Origin: Arthrobacter crystallopoietes
Lineage (GTDB): Bacteria; Actinomycetota; Actinomycetes; Actinomycetales; Micrococcaceae
NCBI RefSeq assembly: GCF_017603825.1
Contig: NZ_CP072014.1
Coordinates: forward strand, 744,001-808,000
DNA length: 64,000 nt
Reading direction: 5' to 3'
Positions 11,173 through 36,855 of this stretch are shown in pieces. The notes below the pieces were generated by a model that had not been told where the DNA came from, did no database searches, and worked only from the letters and a program-made list of their open reading frames with translations. How positions within the stretch are numbered: position 1 is the first letter of the stretch; each line of letters starts with the position of its first letter. Both the position numbers and the translations under genes were made by a program.

Positions 11173-11182
11173 GGAAGGTGCT

Positions 11183-20964: not shown

Positions 20965-21272
20965 CAGCTGCACGGCAGTTTCCTGAGCAGGGACAGCGAC
21001 ACCAGTCCGGCGTGGCTGCAAGGGCGCGGATCCGGCGACGTTGATGCCACGTGCGACGGAAGATGTATCAGCGTGTCCTATCCGGCAGAATTGATTCATA
21101 TGATGAGATACGCAGATTACAACTTGACATAAGGTACCTTATCGGCGTTGAGTTTCGGGCTCAGGGGTTAGATCGTCAGGTATGCCAGAACGGCCTACTC
21201 AGGCCTTCATAGGACACGCGACGGCCAGCCTCGCGGTGCGGTAACCGAAGCTCTGATAGCATCTTGCCACCG
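20965..21272. other. Gene-free gap with orphan promoter-like element
   Basis: 308 bp between a plus-strand and a minus-strand gene. I see no gene. It contains TTGACA (21124-21129) running into the perfect 14-bp palindrome ATAAGGTACCTTAT (21129-21142), an operator-like element with no obvious target gene. The only downstream frame is a 20-codon ATG ORF at about 21181 without a ribosome-binding site. Confidence 0.5.
21129..21142. promoter_or_regulatory. Perfect palindrome overlapping a -35-like hexamer
   Basis: ATAAGGTACCTTAT is a perfect 14-bp palindrome sharing one base with TTGACA at 21124-21129. Such a layout is usual for autoregulated repressors, including toxin-antitoxin promoters. No gene follows on the plus strand, so it may be the surviving promoter of a deleted module or may act on the minus-strand operon end. 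Confidence 0.45.
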
Positions 21273-23021
21273 TCAACGCGTTGGTGCCTGTAATCGGTTC
21301 ATGGCTCCAAAGAGGGGCGGGCTGATTACTACGGAGCGGCCGTTCTGGATCTGCGAGGTTATCAGGACCTGCCCCAAGGTTGGATCGGCGGTTCCGTCGG
21401 GGTAGCTAAGCGGCGATTGTCCGCCGCTGCCGAAATAGTAAATTCCGTTCAGGCCCCGATAGGTTTCTTCACGCAAAACCTTGCAGGTACCAGACGGTAT
21501 GGTGCTGCCGTTGCGTGCCCAGCTCCAAGCCAATAGTTGCACTTGGTCGTAGGCGGCGCTGGCCTGAGATGGTCCGGGTTCGATGCCGTACCGCAGAAGG
21601 TAGTCGCGATGAAATTTTGTGGCAGACGCAGAGTCAGTCCGACTGGTCACTGAGCTCCAAACTGCTCCATCAGCTAGGGGGCCCAGTAGCTCCTTGAACC
21701 TGGGGATCGAAGCGCCGTAAACGTAATGCACTAGACCTGTGAAATCGTGTTCCTTCAGCAGCCGGTGGAACAGCGCGATCTCGTCCGGAATAAAGTGGGC
21801 AACCAACACCACATCAGGGTTGGATGCGGAGATCTTCCGCGCAATTCTCCGCCAATCAGTCTGCCGAAATGGGGCTGATACCTTAGAACAGATGCTCCAG
21901 CCCACCGAGGACAGAGCGCTTTCGAATCCATTCCCCGTGATGCGGGTACTCGGAGAGTCCATTTCCACGATCGCTACCCTGCGGTTGACAGGCGTGTACC
22001 TTCGGCTATCTTCCAGTTCCTGCAGAAAACGTCGAAAAGCCATTGCATAGTACTTTTCTGACGGACACGTCTGGTAGATCATCCAGTACCGTTCGGGCTG
22101 GTCTCGCACCAATTCAACATGCTGCTCGAAGGTGTCTAGATGCAGAAATGGGTGCCCATAGTCGGCCGCCATGTCAAGGATGAACGGGTTTTCCGCGCTG
22201 ATGTAGTTTGTTGTGATGGCATCCACCCTCGCATCGATCAGCCGTTGCATGGCCCCTCGCACATCGGTTGGGCTAAATAGATCCGCGTCGGCAACGATAT
22301 GCTCCAGAGGCCGTCCCGCGATGCCACCGTTGGCATTAATTTCCTCGACTGCAAGAGCGGAACCGCGAACGTGCTCCTCGCCGTCGTCCGTGGCATTGCC
22401 CGACAATGAAGCCAACGTTCCTAGCAGGATAGGACGGCGCATAGGCGGCAGTGCTGCAAGCGCACTGACCCGGTCAGGATTGCCGGCGAGCATGCGGGCA
22501 AATTTCTCAAGTCCCACGGCTGCGATCGGGACAACCCCGTCGACCCCGCCCGGCACGGGCAGTGCAAGCAGATTGCTGTCCACTGCCAAGGCTGCTAATC
22601 CTGCTCGACCGCGCTGGTCCAGTTTCTGGAGTAGCCGCTCAATTTGTGTGGACACTGTTCGCGGGCTGGTTCCCAGCCGCGCAGCGATTTCGATGTTTGT
22701 CAGTCCTAAGGACACGAGAGTTAAAACATCGATCTCACGTTTAGTGATCCCCAGTGGAAGTACTGCGTAACTTGTGCTCACTAGGGCATGGTCCTGTTGG
22801 TCTCCCCGGCCGCGGTGGCGCTCCATGCGCACCGCGAGCCAAGGTCCACTAGTGCGGAAAATAAACTGTGCTTCCGTGCGGTTGACTAGGAGAAAGCCCC
22901 GGGCAAGCTGGATGAGTTCGGCAGCCGGTGCCGTGCCCATGAGGACAGTTGTGTGTCCGTGGTGGTCTGCTGTGAACTCCGACTGGGACATCATGTACTT
23001 GTTCCATCCGCTTATGACCAT
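21273..23021 (-). CDS. LuxR-type HTH regulator fused to a periplasmic-binding-protein-like sensor
   Basis: 582-residue protein with an unusual architecture. Residues about 1-85 have no recognised domain. Residues 91-147 are a LuxR/GerE HTH (GITKREIDVLTLVSLGLTNIEIAARLGTSPRTVSTQIERL, in parts). Residues about 196-560 resemble the type-1 substrate-binding protein of branched-chain amino-acid/amide ABC systems (LLGTLASLSGNA, AVEEINANGGIAGRPLE, DVVLVAHFIPDEIALFHRLLKE, AAYDQVQLLAW). There is no signal peptide or membrane segment, so the sensor domain is probably cytoplasmic and ties ligand binding to DNA binding. It is the last gene of the ABC importer/HDAC-fold operon, starting directly at the preceding stop, and likely senses the imported compound. 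ATG 22991 or 22994 is an alternative start. Confidence 0.82.
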   Translation of the reverse strand: MVISGWNKYMMSQSEFTADHHGHTTVLMGTAPAAELIQLARGFLLVNRTEAQFIFRTSGPWLAVRMERHRGRGDQQDHALVSTSYAVLPLGITKREIDVLTLVSLGLTNIEIAARLGTSPRTVSTQIERLLQKLDQRGRAGLAALAVDSNLLALPVPGGVDGVVPIAAVGLEKFARMLAGNPDRVSALAALPPMRRPILLGTLASLSGNATDDGEEHVRGSALAVEEINANGGIAGRPLEHIVADADLFSPTDVRGAMQRLIDARVDAITTNYISAENPFILDMAADYGHPFLHLDTFEQHVELVRDQPERYWMIYQTCPSEKYYAMAFRRFLQELEDSRRYTPVNRRVAIVEMDSPSTRITGNGFESALSSVGWSICSKVSAPFRQTDWRRIARKISASNPDVVLVAHFIPDEIALFHRLLKEHDFTGLVHYVYGASIPRFKELLGPLADGAVWSSVTSRTDSASATKFHRDYLLRYGIEPGPSQASAAYDQVQLLAWSWARNGSTIPSGTCKVLREETYRGLNGIYYFGSGGQSPLSYPDGTADPTLGQVLITSQIQNGRSVVISPPLFGAMNRLQAPTR

Positions 23022-24161
23022 TTATCCATTCTGCGTGTGGCTTGCCTCCTGCAAAACCGCATAACTCGGGACGAACTGCGCAAGGACCGCTGCCTTCCGG
23101 ATGGCGTCCTCCTGCCAGGGTTCGACTAATCTTTGTGGATAGCTCTGGAAAAAGTCATGGTAGGGATCATCCACAGCTGATTTCAGACCGGTTAGTTCCT
23201 CTAGCACGGCCATGCCACAGAACGGGACGTAGTGCGCCGAATAGCCGCCTTCGTGGGCAAATACCACATTGCCGTCGGCCAACTCAGCGGCGGCTTGGAT
23301 GACTAGATGCGACATGCGGCGGAAGCCCTCACTAGTGACCATCATGCGGCCCAAGGGGTCAGTGACGGCCGCGTCCATGCCGCTACCCACGATGATCAAC
23401 TCCGGCTGGAACCGCTGGAGCGCGGGTATAACAACCTGCTCCACTGCCCGAACATAGCCCCCGTCTCCAGTACCGGCTGGTAGCGGGATATTTAGGGCAC
23501 TTCCCTCAGCGCCTGCACCGCCGTTTTCCTCCCGGAATCCAGAGTCCACCGGGTAGAGTTGGTCCTGGTGAAGAGACACCGTCAGCACGTTAGGGTCCTC
23601 CCAGAAGACCTTTTGAGTACCGTTGCCATGGTGTACATCCCAATCGACGATTGCGATCCTCTCGATCCCGAATTCTTCCCGGGCGATTTCTGCCGCAATG
23701 GACGTGTTGGCCAAAATGCAGTACCCCCGTCCGCGATCCGGCTCTGCGTGGTGTCCTGCGGGCCGCACAAGTGCATACGCATTGCTGACCTCGCCGGCTA
23801 GGACTCCTCGCACAGCACTGGCCACGGCGCCAGCTGCCAGTCGGGCAATGCGTAGACCCTGCGGCCCGAAGTCTGCGTTTTCGCCCGCATCTCCGCCTGT
23901 GGCATCCAGTTCTTTTAGCCGCAGAAGATATCCCGGCGTATGGACTCGGAGGATTTCCGCATCAGTGACCTCGGTTGCCTCTAGACGCCGCATCTGTTTA
24001 TCGAAGCCACTGACCTCCACTAGTGCGGCAAAACGGCCCTTGGTTGCCGGGGAATCGAAGGATTCATAAGGTTGAATGAATCCTCCGGGCGGAAAAAACC
24101 CCGATCCGTTGCCGGTGTTATGCCAATTGAAAGCCTCGTGCCAAATCCAACCGGTCGTCAT
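23022..24161 (-). CDS. Histone deacetylase-fold amidohydrolase (acetylpolyamine amidohydrolase-like)
   Basis: 379-residue zinc amidohydrolase of the HDAC superfamily, class II style. The start is ATG 24161 (MTTGWIWHEAFNWH), preceded by GAGGAG. Catalytic signatures are RPAGHHAEPDRGRGYC (His137/His138), IVDWDVHHGNGTQ (metal ligands Asp173/175 and His177), the later Asp in GSGMDAAVTDPLGRM and the transition-state region EGGYSAHY. Bacterial members hydrolyse acetylpolyamines or other N-acyl or cyclic amides. It lies 76 bp after the ABC permease gene and directly before the LuxR-SBP regulator gene, so it probably acts on the imported substrate, releasing an acyl group and an amine. Confidence 0.88.
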   Translation of the reverse strand: MTTGWIWHEAFNWHNTGNGSGFFPPGGFIQPYESFDSPATKGRFAALVEVSGFDKQMRRLEATEVTDAEILRVHTPGYLLRLKELDATGGDAGENADFGPQGLRIARLAAGAVASAVRGVLAGEVSNAYALVRPAGHHAEPDRGRGYCILANTSIAAEIAREEFGIERIAIVDWDVHHGNGTQKVFWEDPNVLTVSLHQDQLYPVDSGFREENGGAGAEGSALNIPLPAGTGDGGYVRAVEQVVIPALQRFQPELIIVGSGMDAAVTDPLGRMMVTSEGFRRMSHLVIQAAAELADGNVVFAHEGGYSAHYVPFCGMAVLEELTGLKSAVDDPYHDFFQSYPQRLVEPWQEDAIRKAAVLAQFVPSYAVLQEASHTQNG

Positions 24162-24237: not shown

Positions 24238-25287
24238 TCAGGACCGCACGGCGGATCCAGTCTGGAACTTGATGTCCTCATCATCTCGGGATTGTTCGGC
24301 CAGAGCAGCACGGCCTCGATTTTCCCAAGACTTCTTGACAATCTTCTGAATGGATTCGTCCAGGCCTACAGCCACTACCAAAGTCAGTCCCACAATAATG
24401 GTCTGTAGGAACGGGGACGCCTGCAGGAAGACCAACCCATTACGCAGCACGCCAAAAAACAACAGTCCGGCAATCACGCCACCGATGCGACCGCTACCGC
24501 CTGCGAACGCTACGCCACCCAGCAAGACTACGGTTAGCGCACTCATTTCCAGATTGAGCCCGATAGCAGGGCTAGCCGACTGAACCTTCGCGGCCAACAT
24601 TATGCCGGCAAGAGCAGACGACACACCGCAGGCCGCGAACAAGCCGAAACGAATCCTAGCCACGCTGATCCCCATCAGGAAAGCCGCACGCTGGCTGCCG
24701 CCCACCGCGTAAACCTCGCGACCAATGCGATGCCGGTTTAGGACATACCAAGCCAAGGCTATGGCAGCGACAAGCATAACCAAACGCATCGGGACCGGCC
24801 CTATGGCCGCCGTCCCAAGTTCCCTAAACCCGTCCGGCAGCTCGCTCCGAGTCACTGTGCGCCCGTTGGTCATGAGCATCGCATACCCGCCCCAGACGCT
24901 AAGGAAACCCAGTGTCACCACAATTGGATTGAGCCCTAAATAAGCTACGAGGAATCCGTTCAGCATTCCGGCAAATGCGCCGAATATGAGACCGACGGCT
25001 ATGCCTAGGACAATTGAGTCGGTCGCGCTCATGGTCAGGGCCGCATTCACTGCAGCTGCAGAGGCAATAGAGCCAACGGACAGATCTACAGCTCCTGAAA
25101 TCAAGAGCATGGCCAAGGGCAGGGCGATGATCCCGAGCTCCGCGATCTGTAGCATGACATTCATGGCATTGCCCATGCTCAGGAACCTCGGGTTTAGCAG
25201 CGAAAAAAAGATGATCAGCAGGACAAGGGCCATAAAGATCCCGTTGCGCGCCATGAGAGTCTTAAACTCCCCCACGGATTGTTTCAT
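24238..25287 (-). CDS. ABC transporter permease, ribose/sugar type (RbsC-like)
   Basis: 349-residue membrane protein of the RbsC family with about ten helices. Signatures are LLISGAVDLSVGS, GFLVAYLGLNPIVVTLGFLSVW and LGGVAFAGGSGRIGG, the usual permease coupling loop region. Its ATG shares one base with the stop of the ATPase gene (TAATG), so the two are translationally coupled. Together with the ATPase and the lipoprotein binding protein it makes a complete CUT2-type importer. The neighbouring genes argue for an amine/amide-type ligand rather than a sugar, but that is inference. Confidence 0.92.
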   Translation of the reverse strand: MKQSVGEFKTLMARNGIFMALVLLIIFFSLLNPRFLSMGNAMNVMLQIAELGIIALPLAMLLISGAVDLSVGSIASAAAVNAALTMSATDSIVLGIAVGLIFGAFAGMLNGFLVAYLGLNPIVVTLGFLSVWGGYAMLMTNGRTVTRSELPDGFRELGTAAIGPVPMRLVMLVAAIALAWYVLNRHRIGREVYAVGGSQRAAFLMGISVARIRFGLFAACGVSSALAGIMLAAKVQSASPAIGLNLEMSALTVVLLGGVAFAGGSGRIGGVIAGLLFFGVLRNGLVFLQASPFLQTIIVGLTLVVAVGLDESIQKIVKKSWENRGRAALAEQSRDDEDIKFQTGSAVRS

Positions 25288-26795
25288 TATGCGACTTCTT
25301 CCTTAGGAGACGTCCGGTCGGACAGTTCGAGAAGTGTTGACAGCAATTCGCCCCCGAAACGGGAGGTACGGTCTACAGGGGCGGTTCGGCCTCCGTACAT
25401 GACGTAGGCCCTGTCGCACAGCAGGGTGATCTCATCGGATTCTGCCGAAGCAACCAAGACCGACGTCCCTTTTGCAGCCATGGCACGCACAGCCCCAGCA
25501 ATATCGGCCTTGGCCCCCACGTCGACCCCCTGCGTCGGCTGAGCCAGGAGCAGGACGCGCGGAGGGCGGGGAAACATCCACCGAGAAATGAGGTGCTTCT
25601 GCCGGTTTCCACCGCTGAATTCATCAATGGGCGCCTCACTGTCCGGCCCTAAGATGTTCAATACAGCCCGCGCACGGGCGTATTCCTGCGTGCCTGCCTT
25701 CGGACCGATCCAGAATCCCCGATGTGCGGCGTCCCTGTACCAAGGTAAGAAAACGGTGTCAAGAGCCGAGGCTCCTGATACCAAGCCATCGTTCTCCCGG
25801 TCCGCAGGCACGAGGTGGACTCCATGCCGGATTGCGTGGGCGGGTGAGGCGACAGCAACCCGGCGGCCGTCTAGCCTGAAACCGAACCTGCCGTGCATTC
25901 CGAACATACTTTCAAGAAGCGTAAACTGCTCACCGGCTGCCATGCCGAAAAGTCCGACTACTTCTCCAGCTTGACAAGAAATACCGGCGGCAGGCTCCTC
26001 ACACCCGATAGATTCGTGTTCCGAGGGGCGAGCAACGACAAACGTGCCGGTCTTTGCATCCGGTGCTAGTGCCTTGGCGAGCAATTGTCCGTCGAAGTCC
26101 CCGGCGGGTCCGTCGACTTCCAACCGGCCGGACCGAAGGACCAGAATCCGCTGGCATACATCGAGGATGTCTGGCAGGCGGTGGGACACATAAATGACAG
26201 CCACCCCGTCGGCTGCCAGATTCCGGATCAGTCGGTGCAGGGCGACAGTTTCCGCGCGGCCGAGTGCGGCCGTTGGTTCATCAAGCAGTAGGATCTTTAT
26301 TTCACCGCGAAGCATGCCGCGGGCCAGGTCCACCAATTGGCGTTCGCCGAGTGACAGGGTGCCCACGATCAAGTCCAAGTCCAAGTCCGCTCCGACCCGG
26401 GCCAAGGCTCTACGCGCCGCGCCTGACCTGTCCCTGCGGAATAGCTCGGATTGTCCCAGGAAGAGATTGTCGAGGATGCTCAAATTTGGGGCGAGGGCCG
26501 GTTCCTGGTGGATAACCGTGACTCCGCGCCTAGCCATATCCATCGGAGTAGAGCGGGTGCTGACCTCTGTGCCGTCGATCAGGAAAGCGCCAGAGGTGGC
26601 AGGGAAAACACCGGAAACAACATTGAACAAAGTAGATTTGCCCGCCCCATTGTGTCCCAGCAGACCTACTATTTCGCCGGGCGCTATGCCAACACTGACC
26701 GAATCGAGCGCCCTGGTGGCTCCAAACTCGACCGTCAGAGAGCTTAGTTTCAGGACCGCCGGCAGCGGACCGCGTCCTTCAGACAGGTTTTCCAT
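25287..26795 (-). CDS. ABC transporter ATP-binding protein, RbsA-like tandem ATPase
   Basis: 502-residue protein with two nucleotide-binding domains. The first has Walker A GHNGAGKST (about 47-55), signature LSLGERQLVDLARG and Walker B LLLDEPTAALG. The second is degenerate at Walker A (GLFGMAAGEQFTLLE), as in other CUT2 ATPases, but keeps FSGGNRQKHLISRW. The gene starts 5 bp after the binding-protein stop and overlaps the permease start by one base. Confidence 0.93.
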   Translation of the reverse strand: MENLSEGRGPLPAVLKLSSLTVEFGATRALDSVSVGIAPGEIVGLLGHNGAGKSTLFNVVSGVFPATSGAFLIDGTEVSTRSTPMDMARRGVTVIHQEPALAPNLSILDNLFLGQSELFRRDRSGAARRALARVGADLDLDLIVGTLSLGERQLVDLARGMLRGEIKILLLDEPTAALGRAETVALHRLIRNLAADGVAVIYVSHRLPDILDVCQRILVLRSGRLEVDGPAGDFDGQLLAKALAPDAKTGTFVVARPSEHESIGCEEPAAGISCQAGEVVGLFGMAAGEQFTLLESMFGMHGRFGFRLDGRRVAVASPAHAIRHGVHLVPADRENDGLVSGASALDTVFLPWYRDAAHRGFWIGPKAGTQEYARARAVLNILGPDSEAPIDEFSGGNRQKHLISRWMFPRPPRVLLLAQPTQGVDVGAKADIAGAVRAMAAKGTSVLVASAESDEITLLCDRAYVMYGGRTAPVDRTSRFGGELLSTLLELSDRTSPKEEVA

Positions 26796-26800: not shown

Positions 26801-27778
26801 CTACTTAGCCGATTCGGTGTAGAACTGGTCGGCGTTCTCAGGCGTTACGCGGGTCGAGGCGATGTTGATATTACCCTTGAGCGTTCCTTCAGCCGCACCC
26901 AGCAGCAGTTCCACATTCTTCTCGGCCAGCTCCTTGGCAGGCAGAATGTAGCCCAGCCTCCAAATGCCCTCCGGATCCTTGATCAGGTCGAGAGACTCGT
27001 CCGTCGCGTCCAAAGCGCCAAGCAAGTAATCGGGATCGTGGGCATCGACACCGTGTTCCATCAGCGCGCGATAGGCGCCGATCATTTGCCCGTCGCCCGT
27101 GGAAAGCCACACCTTCGTATCCGGATTCGCGCTGAGTTGGCTGCGCGTATTCTCCATCCCGTCCTCGACTGTCAGGGCCGGCATGTCGGCAATCTTAACG
27201 TGTGCTCCAGCATTCTGCAGGCCCTTCTTAATACCTTCGGTCCGGTCCCGGCCAAGATCGGTTTCGTAATAGCTGAAGAGGCCGACCGGGACTTCGGCGG
27301 AGCCGTATTTATCAACAATCCATTTGCCCGCTTCTTCGCCAAGTGCAACACCATCCTGAAAATTGTCGATCACCAATGCGCCCGTGATTCCATCCCATTC
27401 AGTTGCGTAGCCGACCACCGGAATACCCGCGGCGTTTGCCTGCTCAGTGACGGCAGCCATGGAGTCGGACTGAACGGGATAACCCATAATTGCCTTCACA
27501 TCTCCTCGTTGGATCCATGACTCCCAACTCGACACCTGGTTCTGGATATTCCACTGCGGATCATCACTCAGTAGTTCATATCCTGCCTTTTCGATAGCCG
27601 GTTTCATGTACGCCAGTTCGTCCACCCATATCTGAATGTCCAATCCAGCAAAACTCATGGCTACCGCTCCCTTGGAGCCAGAATCTGCTCCTTCGGCACC
27701 GGCTGATCCGCAGCCCGACAGCACAAGGGAGGCCGCGAGCCCCGCTGCGGCGACAAAGGGAATGGCGCGTAGTTTCAT
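26801..27778 (-). CDS. Substrate-binding lipoprotein of the sugar-type ABC importer
   Basis: 325-residue exported binding protein. The signal peptide MKLRAIPFVAAAGLAASL ends in the lipobox LSGC with lipidated Cys23, so it is anchored outside the membrane. The mature part reads as a type-1 periplasmic-binding fold (IMGYPVQSDSMAAVTEQANAAG, GVALGEEAGKWIVDKY, VWLSTGDGQMIGAYRALMEHG). It is the first gene of the operon that continues with the ATPase, permease, HDAC-fold hydrolase and LuxR-SBP regulator. The promoter faces the divergent polysaccharide-deacetylase gene across two matching operators. Confidence 0.92.
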   Translation of the reverse strand: MKLRAIPFVAAAGLAASLVLSGCGSAGAEGADSGSKGAVAMSFAGLDIQIWVDELAYMKPAIEKAGYELLSDDPQWNIQNQVSSWESWIQRGDVKAIMGYPVQSDSMAAVTEQANAAGIPVVGYATEWDGITGALVIDNFQDGVALGEEAGKWIVDKYGSAEVPVGLFSYYETDLGRDRTEGIKKGLQNAGAHVKIADMPALTVEDGMENTRSQLSANPDTKVWLSTGDGQMIGAYRALMEHGVDAHDPDYLLGALDATDESLDLIKDPEGIWRLGYILPAKELAEKNVELLLGAAEGTLKGNINIASTRVTPENADQFYTESAK

Positions 27779-27890
27779 TGTTTCTCCTGTTTCGGTCTGT
27801 CCAACATCAATGGCCGCATCTCCGACGCGTAAACCAAGTAAGTTCGCAAATTCCTTGTGTAATAGGACACACTGCTACAGCCATAGGCAA

Positions 27891-28002
27891 CATGCGTCAT
27901 ATGACGTACGGGATGTAACAATTTTGGTTCTTCCGCTGTGGCACGTTGCCCTACCCCAACCTCTATCCATGGCCACGGTGAAGATACGTCAAATGACGCA
28001 TG
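27891..28002. promoter_or_regulatory. Divergent control region with two inverted copies of a 20-bp operator
   Basis: The perfect palindrome CGTCATATGACG (27895-27906) and the near-identical CGTCAAATGACG (27987-27998) lie 92 bp apart. In extended form the first copy (27891-27910) matches the reverse complement of the second (27983-28002) at 17 of 20 positions. They flank the centre of the 303-bp gap between the importer operon and the plus-strand catabolic operon, so one regulator probably controls both, possibly by looping. The LuxR-SBP protein is the best candidate; LuxR-family sites are dyads of similar size. Confidence 0.72.
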
Positions 28003-28081: not shown

Positions 28082-28879
28082 ATGTTCGATTGGCCTCAAG
28101 GTCATCGTTACGGGGCGACGGTGAGCTTTGACTTCGACGCAGAAGAGGTATGGGTTGGCGAAAACCCTGAAAACGCCTGCAGACCGGGCGTCCTGTCCCA
28201 AGGGGCTTACGGCCCGAAGGTCGCCATGCCCCTGATCCTGGACCTGCTCGAGCGGCACGGTGTCGCCGCCACTTTTTTCATATGCGGCCGCGATGCCGAG
28301 CGTCACCCGGAATCCATCCAATCAATTCTGGCGGCGGGCCACGAAATCGCCCATCACGGCTATACGCATATATCGCCGACCGTGCTGTCCCTCGAGGAGG
28401 AAACTATCGAGATCAAGCGTGGGCTCAAAGCATTGCAGGACCTAGGAGCAGAGGTTGCAGGTTACCGTTCGCCCTCATGGGACTTCAGCGACAAGACGCT
28501 CGACCTACTGCAATCCCACGGGTTTGAATACTCCTCCAATCTGTTGGACGACATCGTCCCCTACCGTCACGCCTCACATGATCTTGTTGAACTGCCCGTG
28601 TCGTGGATCCTGGACGATGCGCCGCACTTCTGGTTCGCAAACGATACATGGGAGAAGACGATACGGTCCCCGCGAGAAGTGTTGGACGTCTGGCTTCCCG
28701 AGATTGACGGCATCGCCTCACTGGGAGGTCATGTCATGCTCACCATGCACCCAATGATCATTGGACGACCCTCCCGACTTGAGATGCTAAATTCCGTGCT
28801 TGCACATCTAGCCACCACGGGTGCCTGGATCCGAACCGCCCGGGAAACTGCCCAACTGGTAAGCGGACGAGTCCCATGA
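28082..28879 (+). CDS. Polysaccharide deacetylase-family amidohydrolase
   Basis: 265-residue NodB-fold metal hydrolase. The start is ATG 28082 (MFDWPQGHRYGATVSFDFDAEE), with AGAGG upstream. Motif 1 is SFDFD (Asp17/Asp19), motif 2 HEIAHHGYTH (His91, His92, His96) and motif 3 YRSPSWDFS. It has no signal peptide, so it is cytoplasmic and unlikely to act on cell-wall polysaccharide. Soluble relatives include PuuE-type allantoinase and cyclic imidases that open rings by C-N hydrolysis. Its stop overlaps the next SDR start by 4 bp. A second paralogue sits at 53929-54852 in another catabolic cluster. Confidence 0.88.
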   Translation: MFDWPQGHRYGATVSFDFDAEEVWVGENPENACRPGVLSQGAYGPKVAMPLILDLLERHGVAATFFICGRDAERHPESIQSILAAGHEIAHHGYTHISPTVLSLEEETIEIKRGLKALQDLGAEVAGYRSPSWDFSDKTLDLLQSHGFEYSSNLLDDIVPYRHASHDLVELPVSWILDDAPHFWFANDTWEKTIRSPREVLDVWLPEIDGIASLGGHVMLTMHPMIIGRPSRLEMLNSVLAHLATTGAWIRTARETAQLVSGRVP

Positions 28880-29676
28880 AGATGCATTTAGAAGAGACAA
28901 CCGGGGCAGAGATGCCCGGCCGGGTTGCCATAGTGACCGGCGCCGCTCAGGGACTTGGCAAATCTATTGCCTCCTCTTTGCTCGGAGCCGGCTACCGGGT
29001 TGTCGCGAGCGATATCGCGCCTTCCCTACCCGAGTCCCTGCATGCCCACAACGGAACCAGTTTGGTCCATGCAGTCACCGACATGGCCGGCCTCGCATCC
29101 GCACGTGAATTGGTGGATCTGGCCATGGACAGCTTCGGTCGCTGCGACGCCGTGGTGAACAATGCCGGCGTAGGGGGGCCCAGCATCGGCTTTCATACAA
29201 CTACGAATGAGCAAATAGCCCGTGTTCTGGAGGTGAACCTGTTGGGCGCCGCCCGGCTATGCCGTGAGGCCATCCCACACCTGCGCAGAAGCGGCCAAGG
29301 GCGCATCATCAACATCGGATCATTATTCGCTGACCATCCAGCACCTAATGGGGCAGCCTATTCCATGTCCAAGGCTGGCTTAGCTGCCCTGACTCGGTGC
29401 ATCGCAGTCGAGGAAGGCATGCACGGGATTACCGCCAACACTATTGCGCCGGGCTACATCTTGACGGAAATGCATGAAGAGGAGGTGGCGATGCAGGCGC
29501 AGCGGCAGGGGATCCCGTTTGAGGAACATTTGGAGCAGTTGCGTTCCACCGTACCGCTCCAGCGGCACGGCACTGGACGCGACGTGGCAGGAGCCGTGTT
29601 GTGGCTGCTCTCGGGAGATGCAGCATATGTTTCCGGGCAGACGATTCATGTCAATGGGGCCTTGGTCTCGTCATAA
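28876..29676 (+). CDS. SDR family NAD(P)-dependent oxidoreductase
   Basis: 266-residue classical short-chain dehydrogenase. The cofactor motif TGAAQGLGKS is at 21-30, NNAG at 95-98, and the catalytic pair Tyr162/Lys166 in AAYSMSKAG with the Ser in NIGSL. The acidic residue after beta-2 (VASDIA) favours NAD+. It overlaps the preceding hydrolase gene by 4 bp (ATGA). It probably oxidises an alcohol or reduces a keto intermediate in the pathway; the substrate is unknown. Confidence 0.9.
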   Translation: MKMHLEETTGAEMPGRVAIVTGAAQGLGKSIASSLLGAGYRVVASDIAPSLPESLHAHNGTSLVHAVTDMAGLASARELVDLAMDSFGRCDAVVNNAGVGGPSIGFHTTTNEQIARVLEVNLLGAARLCREAIPHLRRSGQGRIINIGSLFADHPAPNGAAYSMSKAGLAALTRCIAVEEGMHGITANTIAPGYILTEMHEEEVAMQAQRQGIPFEEHLEQLRSTVPLQRHGTGRDVAGAVLWLLSGDAAYVSGQTIHVNGALVSS

Positions 29677-29734
29677 CAGAATTACCGCCCTAGCGGTTGT
29701 AACGACAATTTCGGCAGAAAGGGCCTCAACGTTG

Positions 29735-30883
29735 GTGGCAGGAAAATTTCCAAGAATTAGAGTTTCCGGGGGTCCCTTTGAAAGGGGACATCAATACGGG
29801 TCACAGGCGCAGGGGCAGGTGCTGGCGGCTCGGGCTGGCTATGAGCAGTCCTTCGCCCAGGCGGGGCTGCGATGGTCCGATGCCGTGGTATTTTCCGAAC
29901 GCTATCTGGAGCCCGTCCGGGATTCTTTCCCGTGGCTGATGACTGAGATAGAAGGAATTGCCGACGGGGCAGGAATCCCTTTCGAGGATATCTTTGCCAT
30001 GAATTGCCGCACCGAAATCCTCTGGGCAGCATTCACGGACCGCGCCGGCGAGAGAGCTCGGCGGTACGGAAGCGAATGCAGTTCATTCGCTCTCACTCCA
30101 GCGAGGACTTCGTCCGGCCATACTCTCGTGGGACAGAATTGGGACTGGCTGCTGCACGGCTTCGAAAGTGTGGTGCTGTTGGAGGTGGAGCGAGAAGACC
30201 ACCCCAATTTCGTCACGATCGTTGAAGCGGGGCTGCTGGCCAAAACCACACTGAATTCCGCAGGCCTTGGTATAGCTGTCAACACCTTGGTCTCTTCCCT
30301 GGACAACGGGCAGAAAGGTGTGCCATTCCATGTTCTGATCCGCGCCCTAGCAGACTGTCGGACAGCTTTCGATGCCGTTGAAACTTTGTCCTCCCATTAC
30401 CGGGCCTCATCAGGGAACTTCGTCGTCGGCGGCCCAGGCGGAGGGATTCTTAATATCGAAACGGCGCCAGGGGATGCCCGGACCGTCCGGCCGTTGATGG
30501 CCCGCAGCGGGGCACTGCTCCACACCAATCATTTCCTAGAAGAAATAGTCGGCGGCCACGACCTTGCTGGCAACGCGATGGCTGACAGCTTCATTCGCCT
30601 CCAGCGTATGCGCGAACTCGTAGCCGGGCGTCAGGAACCCTCCACCATCGACTCCCTCGACCTTGCTTTGAAGGACCACGTGGATTTTCCTGGCTCCATC
30701 TGCTGCCACCCAGACCCCCGGTTCGCCGAAGCCGAACGTTGGTCCACAGTCATGTCCGTTGTGATGGATCTTGAAGACCGGACCCTCCATCTGGCCGAGG
30801 GAAACCCCTGCGAAGCAAGGCGAGAGCCGTTGGACTTCCGCCCGTTCCTGACCAACGTCCTCGAGGGAGCACCCCGTGTCTGA
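29735..30883 (+). CDS. C45 family peptidase/acyl-CoA:6-aminopenicillanate acyltransferase-like hydrolase
   Basis: 382-residue Ntn-type hydrolase of the C45 family. Start choice is difficult: GTG 29735 or TTG 29732, both after AGAAAGGG; I use GTG. Cys115 in YGSECSSFAL is the expected nucleophile exposed by self-cleavage. Supporting motifs are GIADGAGIPFEDIFAMNCRTE, HTLVGQNWDWLLHG and SSGNFVVGGPGGGILNIE. The family includes isopenicillin N acyltransferase and amidases that cut N-acyl amides. In this operon an N-acyl amidase role, complementing the HDAC-fold enzyme, is the simplest reading. It overlaps the next SDR gene by 8 bp. Confidence 0.82.
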   Translation: MAGKFPRIRVSGGPFERGHQYGSQAQGQVLAARAGYEQSFAQAGLRWSDAVVFSERYLEPVRDSFPWLMTEIEGIADGAGIPFEDIFAMNCRTEILWAAFTDRAGERARRYGSECSSFALTPARTSSGHTLVGQNWDWLLHGFESVVLLEVEREDHPNFVTIVEAGLLAKTTLNSAGLGIAVNTLVSSLDNGQKGVPFHVLIRALADCRTAFDAVETLSSHYRASSGNFVVGGPGGGILNIETAPGDARTVRPLMARSGALLHTNHFLEEIVGGHDLAGNAMADSFIRLQRMRELVAGRQEPSTIDSLDLALKDHVDFPGSICCHPDPRFAEAERWSTVMSVVMDLEDRTLHLAEGNPCEARREPLDFRPFLTNVLEGAPRV

Positions 30884-31607
30884 GCTCGGCCCGGTATTAG
30901 CGATCACCGGAGCGGCCTCAGGAATTGGCGCGTCCACCGTCCAGCTTGCACTCAATAGCGGCTACCGGGTCGTGGCCCTAGACAAGAAGACACCGGAGTT
31001 CACCGAAAGGGATGAGTTGCTCCAGGTCTCTTGTGATATCACGGAAGTGACTGCACTCGAACAGATTCTAGAACGCGTGGAAGAACGCTGGCCGGAGGGG
31101 TTGGAAGCGCTAATCCACTGTGCCGGCATCTACCGAACATCAGCTTCGGAGGACGCGGACTTAGCTTTGTGGCAGGAAGTCCAACACGTGAATGTCACCG
31201 GAAGCTACTTGGTCGCCTCGGTGTTGGGACGGCCGATGCTCAGACAGGGCAGAGGCAGCATCGTCTTTCTGAGTTCGATCGCCTACTCGCTCGGGGATGG
31301 GCGGGAGCCCAGTGCCGCCTACGCGGCCAGTAAGGGCGCCGTTGTATCACTCGGCCGTCAGTTAGCGGCCGAGTGGGGGCCCCGCGGTGTCCGGACAAAT
31401 GTGGTGGCTCCCGGCGTCATCGATACCCCAATGACGACCATCGTCAACAACGTGGAGGGCCTAGGCAAGGTCTTAGAAAACATTCCGCTGCAACGCCTCG
31501 GGGAGGCCGAAGAGGTTGCCCAGGCCTGCCTATACCTGGCTAGCCGGAACGCCAGCTACGTCAACGGAGTCGTTCTTCCGGTGGATGGCGGTCAAACCAT
31601 TGTTTAG
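30876..31607 (+). CDS. SDR family oxidoreductase
   Basis: 243-residue short-chain dehydrogenase starting at GTG 30876 (MSELGPVLAITGAASGIGAS), overlapping the C45-family gene by 8 bp. Cofactor motif is TGAASGIG at 11-18, catalytic Tyr149/Lys153 in AAYAASKG, and the acidic end of beta-2 (ALDKK) suggests NAD+. It is only distantly similar to the SDR three genes upstream, so the two probably act on different steps. The GGAG upstream lies inside the preceding coding sequence. Confidence 0.9.
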   Translation: MSELGPVLAITGAASGIGASTVQLALNSGYRVVALDKKTPEFTERDELLQVSCDITEVTALEQILERVEERWPEGLEALIHCAGIYRTSASEDADLALWQEVQHVNVTGSYLVASVLGRPMLRQGRGSIVFLSSIAYSLGDGREPSAAYAASKGAVVSLGRQLAAEWGPRGVRTNVVAPGVIDTPMTTIVNNVEGLGKVLENIPLQRLGEAEEVAQACLYLASRNASYVNGVVLPVDGGQTIV

Positions 31608-31710: not shown

Positions 31711-33057
31711 ATGATCCCTGCCACGAGCACGGCACAAGAAATAAGCCTAAGCCGTGTACTCAGGCTGCCATCTGCAGTCCTGTTCGGTTTGGCCTACATG
31801 CTCCCGTTGACGGTCTTTACTACCTTCGGCATCGTCAACCAGCTGACCGAAGGCCACATCATCTCTTCCTATATCGTCACGCTCGTGGCGATGCTGTTCA
31901 CGGCGGCCAGCTATGCCAAGATGGCACGCGCCTTTCCGGTCGCCGGCTCCGCTTACACCTACACCCGCAAAACATTGGGCGGACACATCGGTTTCATGAG
32001 CGGGTGGACACTGCTGCTGGACTACCTGATGATGCCGATGATCACGTACCTCGTGATCGGCATCTACATGGAAGCAAGCTTCCCCGCGATTCCCCAAGCC
32101 GTTTGGATTGTCCTGTCGATGGTCGTGGTCACCGGGCTCAACATCCTCGGTATCAAACTGATCTCGAAGACCAGCAGCATTCTCTTAGCCGTGCAGGCCG
32201 TGTTCCTGATCGTTTTCGCGGTGATGGCGCTGCGTGCGGCTTCCGGGAATCCGATGCCCTCCATCGTCGACATGCTCATTGGCCAGGGTCCCGGCGTCGC
32301 CGTGATCTTCTCGGGTGCCGCGATTCTGTGCCTGTCCTTCCTCGGCTTTGACGCTGTCTCCGCCCTCGCCGAAGAAACCGTGGACGCACGGCGGATCGTG
32401 CCCAAGGCAATCATTCTGGTCACATTGATCGGCGGTCTGCTGTTCATCGTCATCTCGCTGCTGGCCAACCTGGTTTTCCCGGATTGGACGGCCTACTCCA
32501 GCGTTGACGCGGCGGCGTTGGATGTGACCCGCGCCGCAGGAGGACCGTTCCTTGAGGCGTTCTTCACGGCTGCCTACATTGCCGGATGCTTCGGGGCAGT
32601 GCTGGCATCCCAGACGACCGTCTCCCGCATCCTCTTTTCCATGGGTCGGGACGGCGTCCTTCCACGGCGGGTCTTTGGCTACGTGCATCCCAAGTACCGG
32701 ACGCCTATCTACGCCATCGTGATTGTCGGAGCAATCGGCCTCATTGCGCTGGTCATGGATCTTACGCTCGCTTCATCACTGATCAGCTTCGGCGCTTTAG
32801 CCGCCTTCAGCATGGTCAACCTGTCCGTCATCAAGCATTACTACATCAAAAACGGCCAGCGCCGTGGAATAGACCTCCTCCGATATCTGGTAGCTCCCCT
32901 GTTGGGCCTGGCCCTGTGCGTCTGGCTCTGGACAAGCCTGTCCCCGGTCGCTTTCGTCGTCGGCATCGGCTGGATGCTGGCCGGTCTGGCTTACCTGGCC
33001 ACGATGACCCGAGGATTCAGGCAGAGCCCGCCGGAGCTCAACCTCGCTGACGACTAG
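31711..33057 (+). CDS. APC family amino acid/polyamine permease
   Basis: 448-residue inner-membrane transporter with about 12 helices. Signatures are FGLAYMLPLTVFTTFGIVNQ, FPVAGSAYTYTRKTLGGHIGF (the APC TM3 region) and FLGFDAVSALAEETVDARRIVPKA. The TAAGGA ribosome-binding site is clear. It lies 103 bp after the second SDR gene and 76 bp before the hydantoinase A gene. Given the putrescine/GABA-type enzymes downstream, polyamine or amino-acid uptake is likely. Confidence 0.92.
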   Translation: MIPATSTAQEISLSRVLRLPSAVLFGLAYMLPLTVFTTFGIVNQLTEGHIISSYIVTLVAMLFTAASYAKMARAFPVAGSAYTYTRKTLGGHIGFMSGWTLLLDYLMMPMITYLVIGIYMEASFPAIPQAVWIVLSMVVVTGLNILGIKLISKTSSILLAVQAVFLIVFAVMALRAASGNPMPSIVDMLIGQGPGVAVIFSGAAILCLSFLGFDAVSALAEETVDARRIVPKAIILVTLIGGLLFIVISLLANLVFPDWTAYSSVDAAALDVTRAAGGPFLEAFFTAAYIAGCFGAVLASQTTVSRILFSMGRDGVLPRRVFGYVHPKYRTPIYAIVIVGAIGLIALVMDLTLASSLISFGALAAFSMVNLSVIKHYYIKNGQRRGIDLLRYLVAPLLGLALCVWLWTSLSPVAFVVGIGWMLAGLAYLATMTRGFRQSPPELNLADD

Positions 33058-33133: not shown

Positions 33134-35194
33134 ATGACTACTACTTCCGTGCCCCGATGGACCGTGAGCATCGATGCGGGCGGCACCTTCACCGATGCCA
33201 TTGCCCGCTCGGATGACGGCCGTTCACTGGTTGCCAAGGTTGCCTCGACACCGGCCGATCCCTCGCATGGACTCACCAACGCTGTTGCAGAACTAGCGGC
33301 TCAAGGCATGCCGCTCGAGGATGTAGCACTGGTTTGCCACGGCACCACCGTTGCCACCAACGCCACCTTGACCGGTAACCTGGCCACAGTCGCGCTGGTG
33401 ACAACCAAGGGCTTCCGCGATGTTCTGGCCTACCGGCAGGGCAGCCGTCCCGACGTTTACAGCCTCTCGCCCGAACGACCCCGTGAACTCGTCGATCGCT
33501 ATGCCCGCTTCGAGGTGGATGAACGGATCAGCAGCGACGGGAGCATCCTCCGGCCGCTGCGCGACGAGGACGTCGCCGCAGTCCTCGACGGCATTGCCGA
33601 GGTGCAGCCCGAAGCCATCGCGGTCAGTTTGCTCTTCAGCTACCTCAACCCGGTCCATGAGCACCAGCTCCTGAGCGCGATGGAAGCGCGTTTCCCGGAT
33701 ACTCCGATCACCATCTCCAGCCAGGTGGCCCGCGAGTTCCGGGAATACCCGCGGACCGCGACCACCGTGATCAATGCCGCCCTGCGCCCCGTAGTGGCTG
33801 CCTATCTGCAGCGCGCTGCCACCGCCCTGGAAGGCAGCGGCGTCGCCGCCCCGTTCCAGGTCATGCAGTCAAACGGGGGCTGCGTTCCCGCCGAACGGGC
33901 CGGCGCGCAAGCGCATCGGCTGATCCTCTCCGGGCCGGCAGGCGGCGTGAGCGGACTAGTGCGTGCAGCAGACGAACACGGCCTCAACAATGTCATCAGC
34001 CTCGATATGGGCGGCACCAGCGTCGACGTCTGTTTGGTTCGTGATTCGAAGGCTCCATACACGAGCACGCAGGAAGTGCAGGACCACGTCCTGGTCGCTC
34101 CTACCGTGGACATCCACACCATCGGTGCCGGCGGCGGAAGCATTGCCTGGGTAGACCGGACGCAACGCCTCCGCGTTGGCCCCCAGTCGGCCAAGGCCGT
34201 CCCCGGTCCCGCCAGCTACGGACGCGGCGGTACGGAGGCAACGCTGACGGATGCCCACGTAGTGCTGGGAACCCTGGGCACGGACGCTCTCGCCGGCGAC
34301 CTGCGCCTGGACAAGACCGCCGCCGAAACAGCGGTAAAGGAAATCGGCAGCCAGCTGGACATGGAAGTGCCCGAGGCCGCGGAGGCGATCCTGGCCATCG
34401 CGCTTGCGCATATGGTCCGGGCAGTCCGCAAGGTCAGTGTGGAGCGCGGACTCGATCCGCGTGAGTTCACCCTTTTCCCCTTCGGCGGTGCCGGCCCGCT
34501 GCACGCGGGCATGCTGCTGCGCCACCTCGGCCTGGCCAGCGTAGTTGTGCCGCTGCAGCCAGGGCTCTTCTCCGCCGACGGACTGCTGGCCGCCGGCCTC
34601 CGGGTCGACGACGCGCAGACGGTACTCAAGCCCGTCAGCCCCGATGCGCTGCCGCCCATCAGGGACTGGCTGGAGGAACGGCGGCGGGCCCTGACCGACC
34701 AGATCATTTCCGACGGGGCCGCCGCAGATACCGTGGAAGTCCAAGCCACCATTGACGCCCGCTATCTCGGACAGGGCTATGAGCTCACCGTCAACGTGGA
34801 GGGCACAGATCTTGAGCAGCTCACCCAAATCGCCGAGAAGTTCCATCCTGCCCATGCCGAGCTTTACGGCCACAGCTCCCCGCAGGAAACGGTAGAGATG
34901 GTCACGGTTCGGATTGCCGCCACCGGACAATTCCAACGTGTGCCGTCCTCCCCTATCGCGCAGGGAACCGCAGAGCTTCCGGAGAACGCAATGATCGGCA
35001 CCCGGTTTGTCCGGCTGCCCGGCAGCGGTGAAACGGAGACCATCGTTCTCAACAGGTCCAAGCTCTTGGCCGGCAACATCATCACGGGTCCGGCGATCAT
35101 CACCCAGATGGACGCGACCACAGTCATGCTCAAAGGCCAGACCGGCTTGGTAGCCGCCAACGGCGACATCATCATCACGGAGGACAAGAAATAG
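33134..35194 (+). CDS. Hydantoinase/oxoprolinase subunit A (HyuA-like, ATP-dependent)
   Basis: 686-residue ATPase subunit of the hydantoinase A/oxoprolinase family. The phosphate-binding loop DAGGTFTDAI (about 14-23) and the second LDMGGTSVDVC are the acetate/sugar kinase-like ATP motifs; HTIGAGGGSIAW and FPFGGAGPLHA are family-specific. With the HyuB-like partner 2 bp downstream it forms an ATP-driven enzyme that opens hydantoins, 5-oxoproline or lactams, as in OplBA for caprolactam and pyrrolidinone. In this context 2-pyrrolidinone or a related gamma-lactam feeding into GABA is a good candidate. Confidence 0.92.
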   Translation: MTTTSVPRWTVSIDAGGTFTDAIARSDDGRSLVAKVASTPADPSHGLTNAVAELAAQGMPLEDVALVCHGTTVATNATLTGNLATVALVTTKGFRDVLAYRQGSRPDVYSLSPERPRELVDRYARFEVDERISSDGSILRPLRDEDVAAVLDGIAEVQPEAIAVSLLFSYLNPVHEHQLLSAMEARFPDTPITISSQVAREFREYPRTATTVINAALRPVVAAYLQRAATALEGSGVAAPFQVMQSNGGCVPAERAGAQAHRLILSGPAGGVSGLVRAADEHGLNNVISLDMGGTSVDVCLVRDSKAPYTSTQEVQDHVLVAPTVDIHTIGAGGGSIAWVDRTQRLRVGPQSAKAVPGPASYGRGGTEATLTDAHVVLGTLGTDALAGDLRLDKTAAETAVKEIGSQLDMEVPEAAEAILAIALAHMVRAVRKVSVERGLDPREFTLFPFGGAGPLHAGMLLRHLGLASVVVPLQPGLFSADGLLAAGLRVDDAQTVLKPVSPDALPPIRDWLEERRRALTDQIISDGAAADTVEVQATIDARYLGQGYELTVNVEGTDLEQLTQIAEKFHPAHAELYGHSSPQETVEMVTVRIAATGQFQRVPSSPIAQGTAELPENAMIGTRFVRLPGSGETETIVLNRSKLLAGNIITGPAIITQMDATTVMLKGQTGLVAANGDIIITEDKK

Positions 35195-35196: not shown

Positions 35197-36855
35197 ATGG
35201 AAACCATCGACAACCGGCAAACCGTGGACACAGTGACCTTTGAAGTCATCTCCTCAGCCCTGCACTCAATCGCGGAGGAGATGGGCGTGATCCTCAAGCG
35301 CTCCAGTTACAGTCCCATCATCCGCGACATGGACGACTTCTCCTGCGCCCTGTTCACTCCGGACGGGGACCTGGTGGCGCAGGCTGACTACATCCCTGCC
35401 CAACTCGGCGCCATGTCCCTGGTGGTGAAGGCCATCATCGAACGCTGGGAAGGAAAGATCAACGACGGCGACGCGTTCATCTGCAACCACCCGTTCCTTG
35501 GCGCAATGCACCTACCCGACGTCAATGTGGTCACACCCATTTTTGTGGACGGCCGGCTCGAAGGGTGGAGCGGCACCGCGGCACACCATATCGACGTCGG
35601 CGGTGTGAACCCCGGCAGCGAAGGCCCTGAGCTCGAGGATATCTTCGCTGAGGGGCTGATCCTTCCTCCTGTACGGCTGTCCATTGCGGGCACAGAAAAT
35701 CCGGATGTCATCTCCATCATCACCGACAACATCCGCGACCCGCTCAGCACCGTCAGCGACCTGCGGGCACAACGCGCCGCCTGCATCCTGGGCTACCAGC
35801 GGCTGAACGAACTGGCGGAACAGTACGGCATGGACGTGCTCTCTACCGTCATGTCCCGTTCCCTTGACGTTGTAGAGAAAGCGGTTCGCAATTCCCTGCT
35901 GGACCTTCCGGACGGCACCGGCGAAGCCGAAGGGTTCCTGGACGACGATGGCCTCGATGGTCCGCCCACCCGCATCCATGCCAAGGTCAGCAAGACCGGC
36001 GACACACTTACCATTGACCTATCCGGCTCCAGCGCCCAGGTCCGTGGCGCCATGAACGTACCCTGGGCCAGCGCCCGTGCCGGAATCGTCTACGCTGTAC
36101 GCGCTGTAGTGGCCCCGGACTTGGGCGCCAACGATGGACTGCTGCGCGCCGTGAATGTGATTGCGCCCAAGGGCAGCGTCCTCAATCCCGAGGCACCGGC
36201 GGCAGTCTCTATCCGCCACAACACCTGCCAGCGCTTCGCCGACACCCTGATCCGCGCACTGACCGATCTGTGGCCCGATGAATCGGTCGGCAGCAGCACC
36301 GTCAGCTTCTTCTGCATGAACGTGGGCAGCACCTCGCCGGTGACGGGACGCCCGGCGGTGATGGCCGACGTCGTTGGCGGCGGCACCGGAGGAACCAGGT
36401 TCGGTGACGGGGTGGACGGCGTTGACACTTATATGTCCAACGTTGGCGTGATGCCCGCCGAAGTGGTGGAGACGAACTACCGGATCCGGATTTTGAAGAA
36501 CGAGTTTGTGCCCGGATCACAAGGCACCGGAAAGTACAACGGCGGAATGGGGCTGCGCCGCGAATACCAAATCCTGGAACACCCGCAACGCGCCACCTTC
36601 TATGCCGAGCAGACCAACGGCAGCTTCTCGCCTGAGGGCGCGGCCGGCGGCGGGGCCGCGCACGCAACGCGGATCACCCTCATCACTCCGGATGGAACTG
36701 AGCACGAAGTGGCGACGAAGACCTCCACCACGCTTCAGCCCGGCACAGTGGTTCGCGTAGAAACAGCCGGTGGCGGCGGCTTCGGTCCGGCCGCCGAGCG
36801 CCCGGCCGAACTGAAGGCAGCCGATCTGCGTGACGGCCGGCTGGTGCTGGGATGA
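35197..36855 (+). CDS. Hydantoinase/oxoprolinase subunit B (HyuB-like)
   Basis: 552-residue partner of the upstream A subunit. Signatures are LKRSSYSPIIRDMDDFSCALFTPDGDLVAQADYIPAQLGAM (in parts), FICNHPFLGAMHLPDVNVVTPIF and WSGTAAHHIDVGG with a metal-type His-His pair, plus GTGKYNGGMGLRREY near the C-terminus. ATG 35197 begins 2 bp after the A-subunit stop. The last 4 bp overlap the FAD oxidoreductase start, so the three genes are translationally coupled. Confidence 0.92.
   Translation: METIDNRQTVDTVTFEVISSALHSIAEEMGVILKRSSYSPIIRDMDDFSCALFTPDGDLVAQADYIPAQLGAMSLVVKAIIERWEGKINDGDAFICNHPFLGAMHLPDVNVVTPIFVDGRLEGWSGTAAHHIDVGGVNPGSEGPELEDIFAEGLILPPVRLSIAGTENPDVISIITDNIRDPLSTVSDLRAQRAACILGYQRLNELAEQYGMDVLSTVMSRSLDVVEKAVRNSLLDLPDGTGEAEGFLDDDGLDGPPTRIHAKVSKTGDTLTIDLSGSSAQVRGAMNVPWASARAGIVYAVRAVVAPDLGANDGLLRAVNVIAPKGSVLNPEAPAAVSIRHNTCQRFADTLIRALTDLWPDESVGSSTVSFFCMNVGSTSPVTGRPAVMADVVGGGTGGTRFGDGVDGVDTYMSNVGVMPAEVVETNYRIRILKNEFVPGSQGTGKYNGGMGLRREYQILEHPQRATFYAEQTNGSFSPEGAAGGGAAHATRITLITPDGTEHEVATKTSTTLQPGTVVRVETAGGGGFGPAAERPAELKAADLRDGRLVLG

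Follow-up and report, generated by a model that had tools for sequence, protein, structure and literature searches.

A LuxR-type regulator of Arthrobacter crystallopoietes with an intracellular substrate-binding-protein sensor and a predicted role in amide use

How does a nutrient-binding protein of a type that is normally exported come to stand inside the cell behind a DNA-binding head, and what would it sense there? The question is raised by an open reading frame (ORF) of 582 amino acids located on the minus strand (21273..23021) of a 64,000-nucleotide stretch of Arthrobacter crystallopoietes DNA (contig NZ_CP072014.1, positions 744,001 to 808,000), hereafter the window, in which position 1 is the first letter. 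A preliminary description, made from the letters and the ORF translations, had read its product as a cytoplasmic one-component regulator with a LuxR helix-turn-helix (HTH) N-terminal to a type-1 sensor. Pfam, AlphaFold, and a hydropathy scan agree on this layout, and the regulator most likely senses amide-type compounds. Loci other than the window are referred to below by L numbers, and positions given with them are their own.

Domain organization of the regulator

The regulator consists of a LuxR/GerE HTH joined to a complete type-1 binding-protein domain, without an export signal. Pfam matched GerE (PF00196) at residues 93 to 145 (E 3.1e-12, 46.4 bits for a cut-off of 23.5), which places the domain in the LuxR/FixJ (GerE) HTH superfamily, and Peripla_BP_6 (PF13458) at residues 198 to 527 (E 7e-29, 102 bits for a cut-off of 31.7), with Peripla_BP_5 also matching at E 6.6e-14. 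The HTH (residues about 91 to 152; 22566..22751, minus strand) resembles LiaR-, DegU-, and NarL-type domains (Z 10.5 to 11.1). The sensor (residues 196 to 582; 21276..22436, minus strand) extends to the C terminus, and its best structural match is the importer binding protein 3h5l (Z 46.1, 2.9 Å over 382 residues, 28% identity), so that the two-lobe periplasmic-binding fold spans its whole length, as the preliminary description had proposed.

HTH and sensor are connected by a minus-strand linker (residues 153 to 195; 22437..22565) that is modelled with lower confidence, the 10-residue means of the predicted local distance difference test (pLDDT) being 81, 56, 72, 58, and 65 over residues 151 to 200. 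Mean pLDDT was 79.6 for the whole regulator and 88.4 for residues 1 to 162 modelled alone. A plain hydropathy scan, carried out without a dedicated signal predictor, detected no signal peptide or membrane helix in the regulator; the highest 19-residue value (1.73, residues 151 to 169) falls within the linker. The HTH is preceded by a small beta-rich domain that had been overlooked at first (residues about 12 to 90; 22752..22988, minus strand), for which 10-residue pLDDT means of 83 to 93 were obtained over residues 12 to 86 or so when it was modelled with the HTH. Foldseek ranked VqmA and EL222, which we take to be PAS- and LOV-LuxR proteins, first for the model of residues 1 to 162. Because a second-look alignment with VqmA, covering this domain plus the HTH, stands at 6.8 Å over 142 residues (Z 10.4), "PAS-like" is used here as a fold label only. 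Met1, Met10, and Met11 are all possible translation starts.

Several familiar regulator classes were considered and set aside. At E ≤ 0.1, Pfam gave no autoinducer-binding domain as in quorum-sensing proteins of the LuxR/RhlR type, residues 1 to 90 being modelled as the small PAS-like domain; no REC domain as in two-component response regulators of the NarL type; and no LacI HTH, the HTH being GerE. Two transcription-regulation families of PHROGs match the regulator, in its HTH region only.

By analogy, the regulator would work like AmiC and LacI/XylR while being a member of neither group. AmiC of Pseudomonas aeruginosa (1pea, 1qnl, and 1qo0) relies on a type-1 binding fold for the amide sensing that serves an amide-hydrolase operon, and its structures match the sensor at Z 35.4 to 35.6 (35.6 for 1qo0) over 340 to 343 residues, with 18% identity. 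AmiC is a separate cytoplasmic protein acting on the antiterminator AmiR, whereas the present sensor is fused to a DNA-binding LuxR HTH; no ANTAR match was found among the 10 window genes scanned with Pfam. Regulators of the LacI/XylR type also combine a sensor of binding-protein fold and an HTH in one cytoplasmic chain, but their HTHs belong to other families, and the sensor studied here is a Peripla_BP_6 domain in which Pfam found no LacI-family sensor at E ≤ 0.1. VqmA and EL222 presumably share the PAS-like domain ahead of a LuxR HTH, but they have no binding-protein sensor, the signal being taken by the PAS or LOV domain itself.

Members and origin of the fusion family

We found 16 fusion proteins in 15 loci, window included, distributed over Actinomycetota and Alphaproteobacteria. 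A scan of contigs from 84,980 species with alignment A1 gave 8 loci, a sample of the class provided four further genomes with a fusion, and plasmids contributed two further intact fusions and a broken one, the latter present in three Paracoccus records. The broken copy (L028) is left outside the 15 loci and the tree and is included in the 16-locus count of sites below. The Arthrobacter hankyongi locus (G009/L029) also appears as L030, and L077 and L079 are near-copies that are counted twice. In each of the 10 sequences of alignment A3, Pfam matched GerE, Peripla_BP_6, and Peripla_BP_5 (the first two at E ≤ 0.001), in line with the pairing expected from the first description; the Pfam scan covered these members, and the remaining six fusions were matched by profiles of the sensor and of the PAS-like + HTH part, both derived from the same alignment. 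The pairing is rare, as had been supposed. It was detected in 2 of the 10 genomes examined within the genus (its own included), in 5 of 394 drawn from the class, and in the classwide (1/385) and phylumwide (1/398) samples around Kaistia only in the Kaistia genome itself. These frequencies are lower bounds because the best three candidates per genome were scored and the E-value limits differed among surveys (1e-30, 1e-60, and 1e-40). Two members deserve mention for their arrangement. In Kaistia hirudinis (L031), two fusion regulators (9890-11653 and 18754-20622) flank a single operon with importer, NodB, and penicillin-acylase genes, and in Paracoccus pantotrophus (L028), the regulator, NodB, and nitrilase genes appear fragmented beside nmp-like genes.

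In a maximum-likelihood phylogeny built on 43 sensor domains, the 16 fusions and the 27 importer-type proteins fall on opposite sides of a branch (100/99; 200 of 200 bootstrap trees), which fits a single origin. Under midpoint rooting, used for drawing only, the group nearest to the fusions comprises L082 to L085, L087, and L038. Importer binding proteins of the 3h5l type (Silicibacter pomeroyi) belong to the same clade over the whole sensor, C-terminal tail included (profile E 3.7e-83); the importer-type members differ in having Tat-, lipoprotein-, or other leader-like N termini and genes of a liv-type importer. By eye, 19 of the 27 leaders carry a twin-arginine-like motif, L032 has an RK variant, and L082 to L086 show a lipobox-like motif. 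A hydropathy threshold for a leader was reached by 8 of the 27 and, ahead of the sensor domain, by none of the 16 fusions. Most importer-type leaders thus look to be of the twin-arginine translocation (Tat) type; since Tat substrates fold before export, such proteins would fold in the cytoplasm and the clade would be ready for work there.

The sensor has kept part of the importer-type pattern of conservation, 17 of the 51 near-invariant fusion positions being near-invariant in importer-type proteins too. Y273, T297, Y325, W390, and Y435 occur in 16 of 16 fusions and in 20, 25, 27, 27, and 26, respectively, of the 27 importer-type proteins. Another set is conserved mainly in the fusions, namely, D267 (15/16 versus 0/27), Q551 (15/16 versus 1/27), W501 (16/16 versus 6/27), and Y528 (16/16 versus 5/27), and these four residues are candidates for contacts between sensor and head.

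As for the head, a LuxR regulator gene adjoins the importer operon in each of L082 to L085, and the PAS-like + HTH profile found its best non-fusion ORFs of the examined loci in these regulators (82.7 to 101.4 bits; the next, in L002, scored 71.8). The PAS-like profile alone matched them weakly (E 2e-4 in L085, 0.002 in L084, 0.022 in L082, and 0.025 in L083) and matched no other non-fusion LuxR protein of the examined loci at E ≤ 0.1. One of the four aligns lengthwise (27% over 352) with the LuxR gene product encoded beside dmfA1A2 on plasmid pAMI2 (L105), which from its position we infer to be DmfR, the LuxR-family activator through which dimethylformamide activates dmfA according to PMC4543880. 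The fusion profile matches the pAMI2 protein mainly in the HTH, and the PAS-like part alone has no match there at E ≤ 10. Like the regulator of the window, DmfR combines a LuxR HTH with a place beside amide-hydrolase genes, and the DmfR-like regulators of L082 to L085 may have the PAS-like/HTH half in common with the fusions. DmfR differs in having no binding-protein domain, and the L082 to L085 regulators in having an extra N-terminal half (with a GAF match, below gathering score, in one of four). The window regulator has no such half, its ORF starting right after the hydrolase stop, and no GAF match in Pfam. Also on pAMI2, a predicted "AAK beta-lactamase" (L105 6096-6359) overlaps an IS3 transposase gene and looks spurious.

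These relationships suggest a single fusion event, between an amide importer's binding protein and the C-terminal half of a LuxR activator resembling DmfR. The chances seem to us evenly balanced that the fusions form a single-origin regulator class of Actinomycetota and Alphaproteobacteria, in which the importer's own binding protein, mostly of the Tat type, became attached to a DmfR-like head and turned into an intracellular sensor without changing its ligand class.

Gene company and operator-like palindromes

As first described, the regulator closes an operon of importer and hydrolase genes. On the minus strand, the order is an exported lipoprotein-like binding protein (26801..27778; Peripla_BP_4, with a hydrophobic leader ending in LSGC), an importer ATPase of the sugar (AraG/XylG-like) type by Pfam and NCBIfam (25287..26795), a BPD_transp_2 permease (24238..25287), a histone-deacetylase (HDAC)-like amidohydrolase (23022..24161; PF00850, E 9.3e-79; start ATG at 24161 after GAGGAG), and the regulator, whose ATG directly follows the hydrolase stop. 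Among the PDB sequences nearest to the hydrolase are HDAH, propanil hydrolase, and dimethoate hydrolase. The suggestion that the cell uses one fold outside for uptake and another inside for sensing is only partly borne out in the window, where the exported protein is RbsB-like and belongs to a different Pfam family (Peripla_BP_4) from the sensor (Peripla_BP_6), so that the cell is not simply using the same receptor twice. It is literally true of two relatives, L032 and L080, the fusion loci with a liv-type importer whose binding protein belongs to the sensor's own clade.

The company kept by the fusions was counted with tblastn at E ≤ 1e-15 in each of the 15 loci, the window being represented by 33 kb. 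In 14 of them, all except L078, the fusion has a NodB-like gene in its neighborhood; that of L034 was recovered by tblastn after being missed by a greedy non-overlapping choice of ORFs. Eight loci (L026, L027, L033, L034, L036, L037, L077, and L079) hold a nitrilase-superfamily gene and six others (window, L030, L031, L032, L035, and L080) an Ntn-type acylase of the C45 or penicillin amidase kind; the two were never found together (0/15), and L078 has neither. HDAC-like genes were limited to the window and A. hankyongi, and a sugar-type importer was present in 6 loci (window, L030, L031, L033, L035, and L036). Within the fetched stretches, a gene with an amide- or nitrile-hydrolase-type label was found near 17 of the 27 importer-type relatives. 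These include HDAC-like genes (L040, L082, L085, and L089 to L095), dimethylformamidase genes (L038, L039, L082, and L085), and a set of aldoxime dehydratase, amidase, and nitrile hydratase genes (L041). NodB genes accompany L032, L080, L081, and L086 and, at a greater distance, L093. In L089 to L092, ORFs of 910 to 1061 amino acids with a LuxR HTH adjoin the HDAC and importer operons and represent a further type of regulator.

Two 20-bp palindromes, CATGCGTCATATGACGTACG (27891..27910) and GATACGTCAAATGACGCATG (27983..28002), lie 92 bp apart between the divergent operons of the window (27779-28081), making 27891-28002 the likely binding region, as had been guessed. In A. hankyongi, where the spacing is 93 bp, they are conserved at 20 of 22 and 21 of 22 positions, compared to 134 of 247 in the remaining intergenic stretch. 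An 18-bp form with ≤2 mismatches gave four matches in the window (two places, both strands) where 0.12 were expected, and in the 4.38-Mb genome a 16-bp core with ≤1 mismatch was located three times, twice at the window palindromes, and a reversed control pattern not at all. Because these patterns and the outer-arm pattern below were composed from the window sites, the small numbers expected by chance do not amount to an independent test; the independent evidence is the recurrence in other loci.

A matrix built from the four sites scored 27.3 bits in L027, in the gap between the nitrilase and regulator genes; the regulator there is 30% identical in alignment A2. In L080 it scored 25.9 bits between the NodB and importer genes and a further 17.6 between regulator and HyuA. 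The maxima in 20 Markov-shuffled copies per locus were 14.5 for L027 and 14.4 for L080. The outer-arm pattern CATRCG-N8-CGYATG (≤1 mismatch, 0.0 to 0.8 expected per locus) precedes the nitrilase gene in L026, L033, L036, and L037 and was also met elsewhere in L033 (1), L036 (2), L078 (1), and L085 (1). By either method, 8 of 16 loci (window, L029, L026, L027, L033, L036, L037, and L080) have a site in the expected gap. The L085 box (9739-9758) stands before a standalone DmfR-like regulator ORF beside the importer operon; the pattern had no match in L082, L083, L084, or the pAMI2 stretch L105. Given this box in one of the four such loci, the operator may predate the fusion.

The plus-strand operon opens with a NodB/polysaccharide-deacetylase-like amidohydrolase (28082..28879; PF01522, with NCBIfam and PDB kin), for which the start context favors ATG 28082 over TTG 28007. 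It continues with a short-chain dehydrogenase (SDR; 28876..29676), a C45/AAT Ntn-type acyltransferase-amidase (29474..30883; PF03417 and NF040521; true start probably downstream of 29474), a second SDR (30876..31607), an amino-acid permease (31711..33057), the hydantoinase/oxoprolinase HyuA (33134..35194), hydantoinase B, HyuB (35197..36855), and a DAO-type flavin-dependent oxidoreductase (36852..38264). The last three are of the kinds named NmpA, NmpB, and NmpC in N-methylpyrrolidone degraders, and they share 28 to 38% identity with the corresponding proteins of L026, L028, and L078. Also on the plus strand are an aldehyde dehydrogenase (38607..40130) and a class-III aminotransferase (40183..41562). 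PMC12866759 describes an N-methylpyrrolidone pathway that includes a HyuA/HyuB-type N-methylhydantoin amidohydrolase, an amino-acid oxidase, and a succinate-semialdehyde dehydrogenase. Compared with it by kind of enzyme, the plus-strand genes would represent a pathway of this kind only, and any assignment of a substrate would be tentative. ORFs of 382 (19951-21099) and 424 amino acids (41726-43000) had no Pfam match. Two further genes border the region. A PucR-family regulator gene lies upstream at 14205-15812, and PucR genes also adjoin the related clusters L026 and L028. A MobA/VirD2-like relaxase gene (43016-44347; E 1.1e-10) just past the catabolic cluster possibly marks the border of a mobile element.

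A predicted amide switch and its alternatives

We consider the regulator to be, more likely than not, a cytoplasmic ligand-gated one-component activator of amide, lactam, and imide use, resembling AmiC-AmiR in one chain. Its C-terminal binding-protein domain would close around a ligand of amide type (a lactam, a cyclic imide, an N-acyl amine, or another substituted amide) handled by the neighboring importer and hydrolases. Closure would be relayed through the linker to a PAS-like/LuxR dimer binding the two palindromes, which would most likely activate the importer-amidohydrolase-regulator operon and also the NodB-SDR-C45-SDR-permease-HyuAB-oxidase operon. As the last gene of an operon that it would activate, the regulator would exert positive feedback. 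The DNA contact is predicted from the footprint of conserved palindromes and the amide ligand class is deduced from gene company; dimer, positive sign, and allostery are likewise what we infer. The preliminary description had the layout right; the PAS-like domain, the resemblance to DmfR-like regulators, and the amide theme had escaped it.

Several observations weigh against this proposal. The PAS-like label comes from the fold resemblance to VqmA, and the profile of this domain has no match in the fusions of L027, L077, and L079. The importer of the window is of the sugar type (AraG/XylG/RbsB kin). Its NodB-like protein appears closest to polysaccharide deacetylases, both in NCBIfam (XrtA-system polysaccharide deacetylase first, PuuE allantoinase third, all below cut-off) and in the PDB (3rxz, then HpPgdA 3qbu). 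PMC9304392 and PMC3084791 treat HpPgdA-like enzymes as kin of PuuE and cyclic imide hydrolases, and the reading of the NodB-like enzyme as a cyclic imide hydrolase, drawn from such kin, is weak. No amide-hydrolase label was found in the fetched stretches, some of them short contigs, of 10 of the 27 importer-type relatives (L083, L084, L087, L088, and L096 to L101). The matrix and outer-arm searches gave no convincing site in L028 (broken), L031, L034, L035, or L078, and L032, L077, and L079 have sub-threshold palindromes only, each the best of its locus. Finally, a sigma-70 scan of 27600-28200, which leaves out other promoter types, scored no promoter; with no transcription start to measure the sites against, the sign of control can only be guessed.

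The last point bears on the least improbable alternative, which is still an unlikely one: the same regulator and sites with the opposite sign, a repressor leaving DNA upon amide binding and thereby derepressing the operons, by an AmiC- or LacI-like logic. Palindromes in a divergent promoter region would suit a repressor, the titles of 1pea and 1qnl name AmiC a negative regulator, and no promoter hexamers were found to position the sites. Yet one-component proteins with a LuxR HTH are mostly activators, and a region devoid of a good sigma-70 consensus, within the limits of that scan, is what is expected of activator-dependent promoters. DmfR, the nearest studied relative of the head, is likewise reported as an activator (PMC4543880).

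A ligand other than an amide is, if anything, slightly harder to accept. Here the sensor would bind a sugar, an N-acetylated sugar, or an amino acid that the cluster breaks down, the amide theme reflecting the N-acyl group only. The sugar-type importers of the window and five other loci, the annotation of NodB-like enzymes as polysaccharide deacetylases, and the presence of Leu/Ile/Val and aromatic-acid binders in the fold class would fit such a ligand. However, the sensor belongs to another clade than the binding protein of the sugar-type importer, and the members of its clade that have their own importers adjoin genes for dimethylformamidase, nitrile hydratase/amidase, and HDAC-like amidohydrolases. 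Moreover, the type of importer differs among loci whereas NodB is constant.

We regard it as very improbable that the binding-protein domain is an oligomerization or protein-contact module with no small ligand, control passing through the PAS-like domain or a partner. D267, Q551, W501, and Y528 suggest a new contact surface, but Y273, T297, Y325, W390, and Y435 are kept in most importer-type proteins, as are a third of the near-invariant positions (17/51). The public label "ABC transporter substrate-binding protein" of the L026 and L027 plasmid homologues would make the regulator a normal ABC binding protein whose start was mis-called. This reading can be dismissed, since an in-frame HTH, conserved in all 10 members scanned, and a linker precede the domain, and the hydropathy scan showed no signal-like stretch ahead of it; only 8 of the 27 importer-type proteins reach the hydropathy threshold themselves, but the RR and lipobox-like motifs of their leaders provide a clearer contrast by eye.

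In its accessible part, a 2012 census of 991 LuxR proteins from 53 actinobacterial species gives REC, PAS, AAA, HDc, CHD, FHA, PKc, TPR, and CSP as partner domains and lists no binding-protein domain among them (PMC3466318). A search for a published account of the pairing returned nothing relevant in the open-licence literature, most subscription journals lying outside it. Binding-protein sensors joined to LuxR heads may thus have gone unrecorded so far. If the proposal is true, they would represent a new sensor layout with a testable operator and an evolutionary route from uptake receptor to gene switch. L032 and L080, which hold an importer twin beside a sensor twin, would allow uptake receptor and sensor to be compared directly, and the regulator might find use in biosensors that detect lactams, imides, or other solvents and agrochemicals of the amide type.

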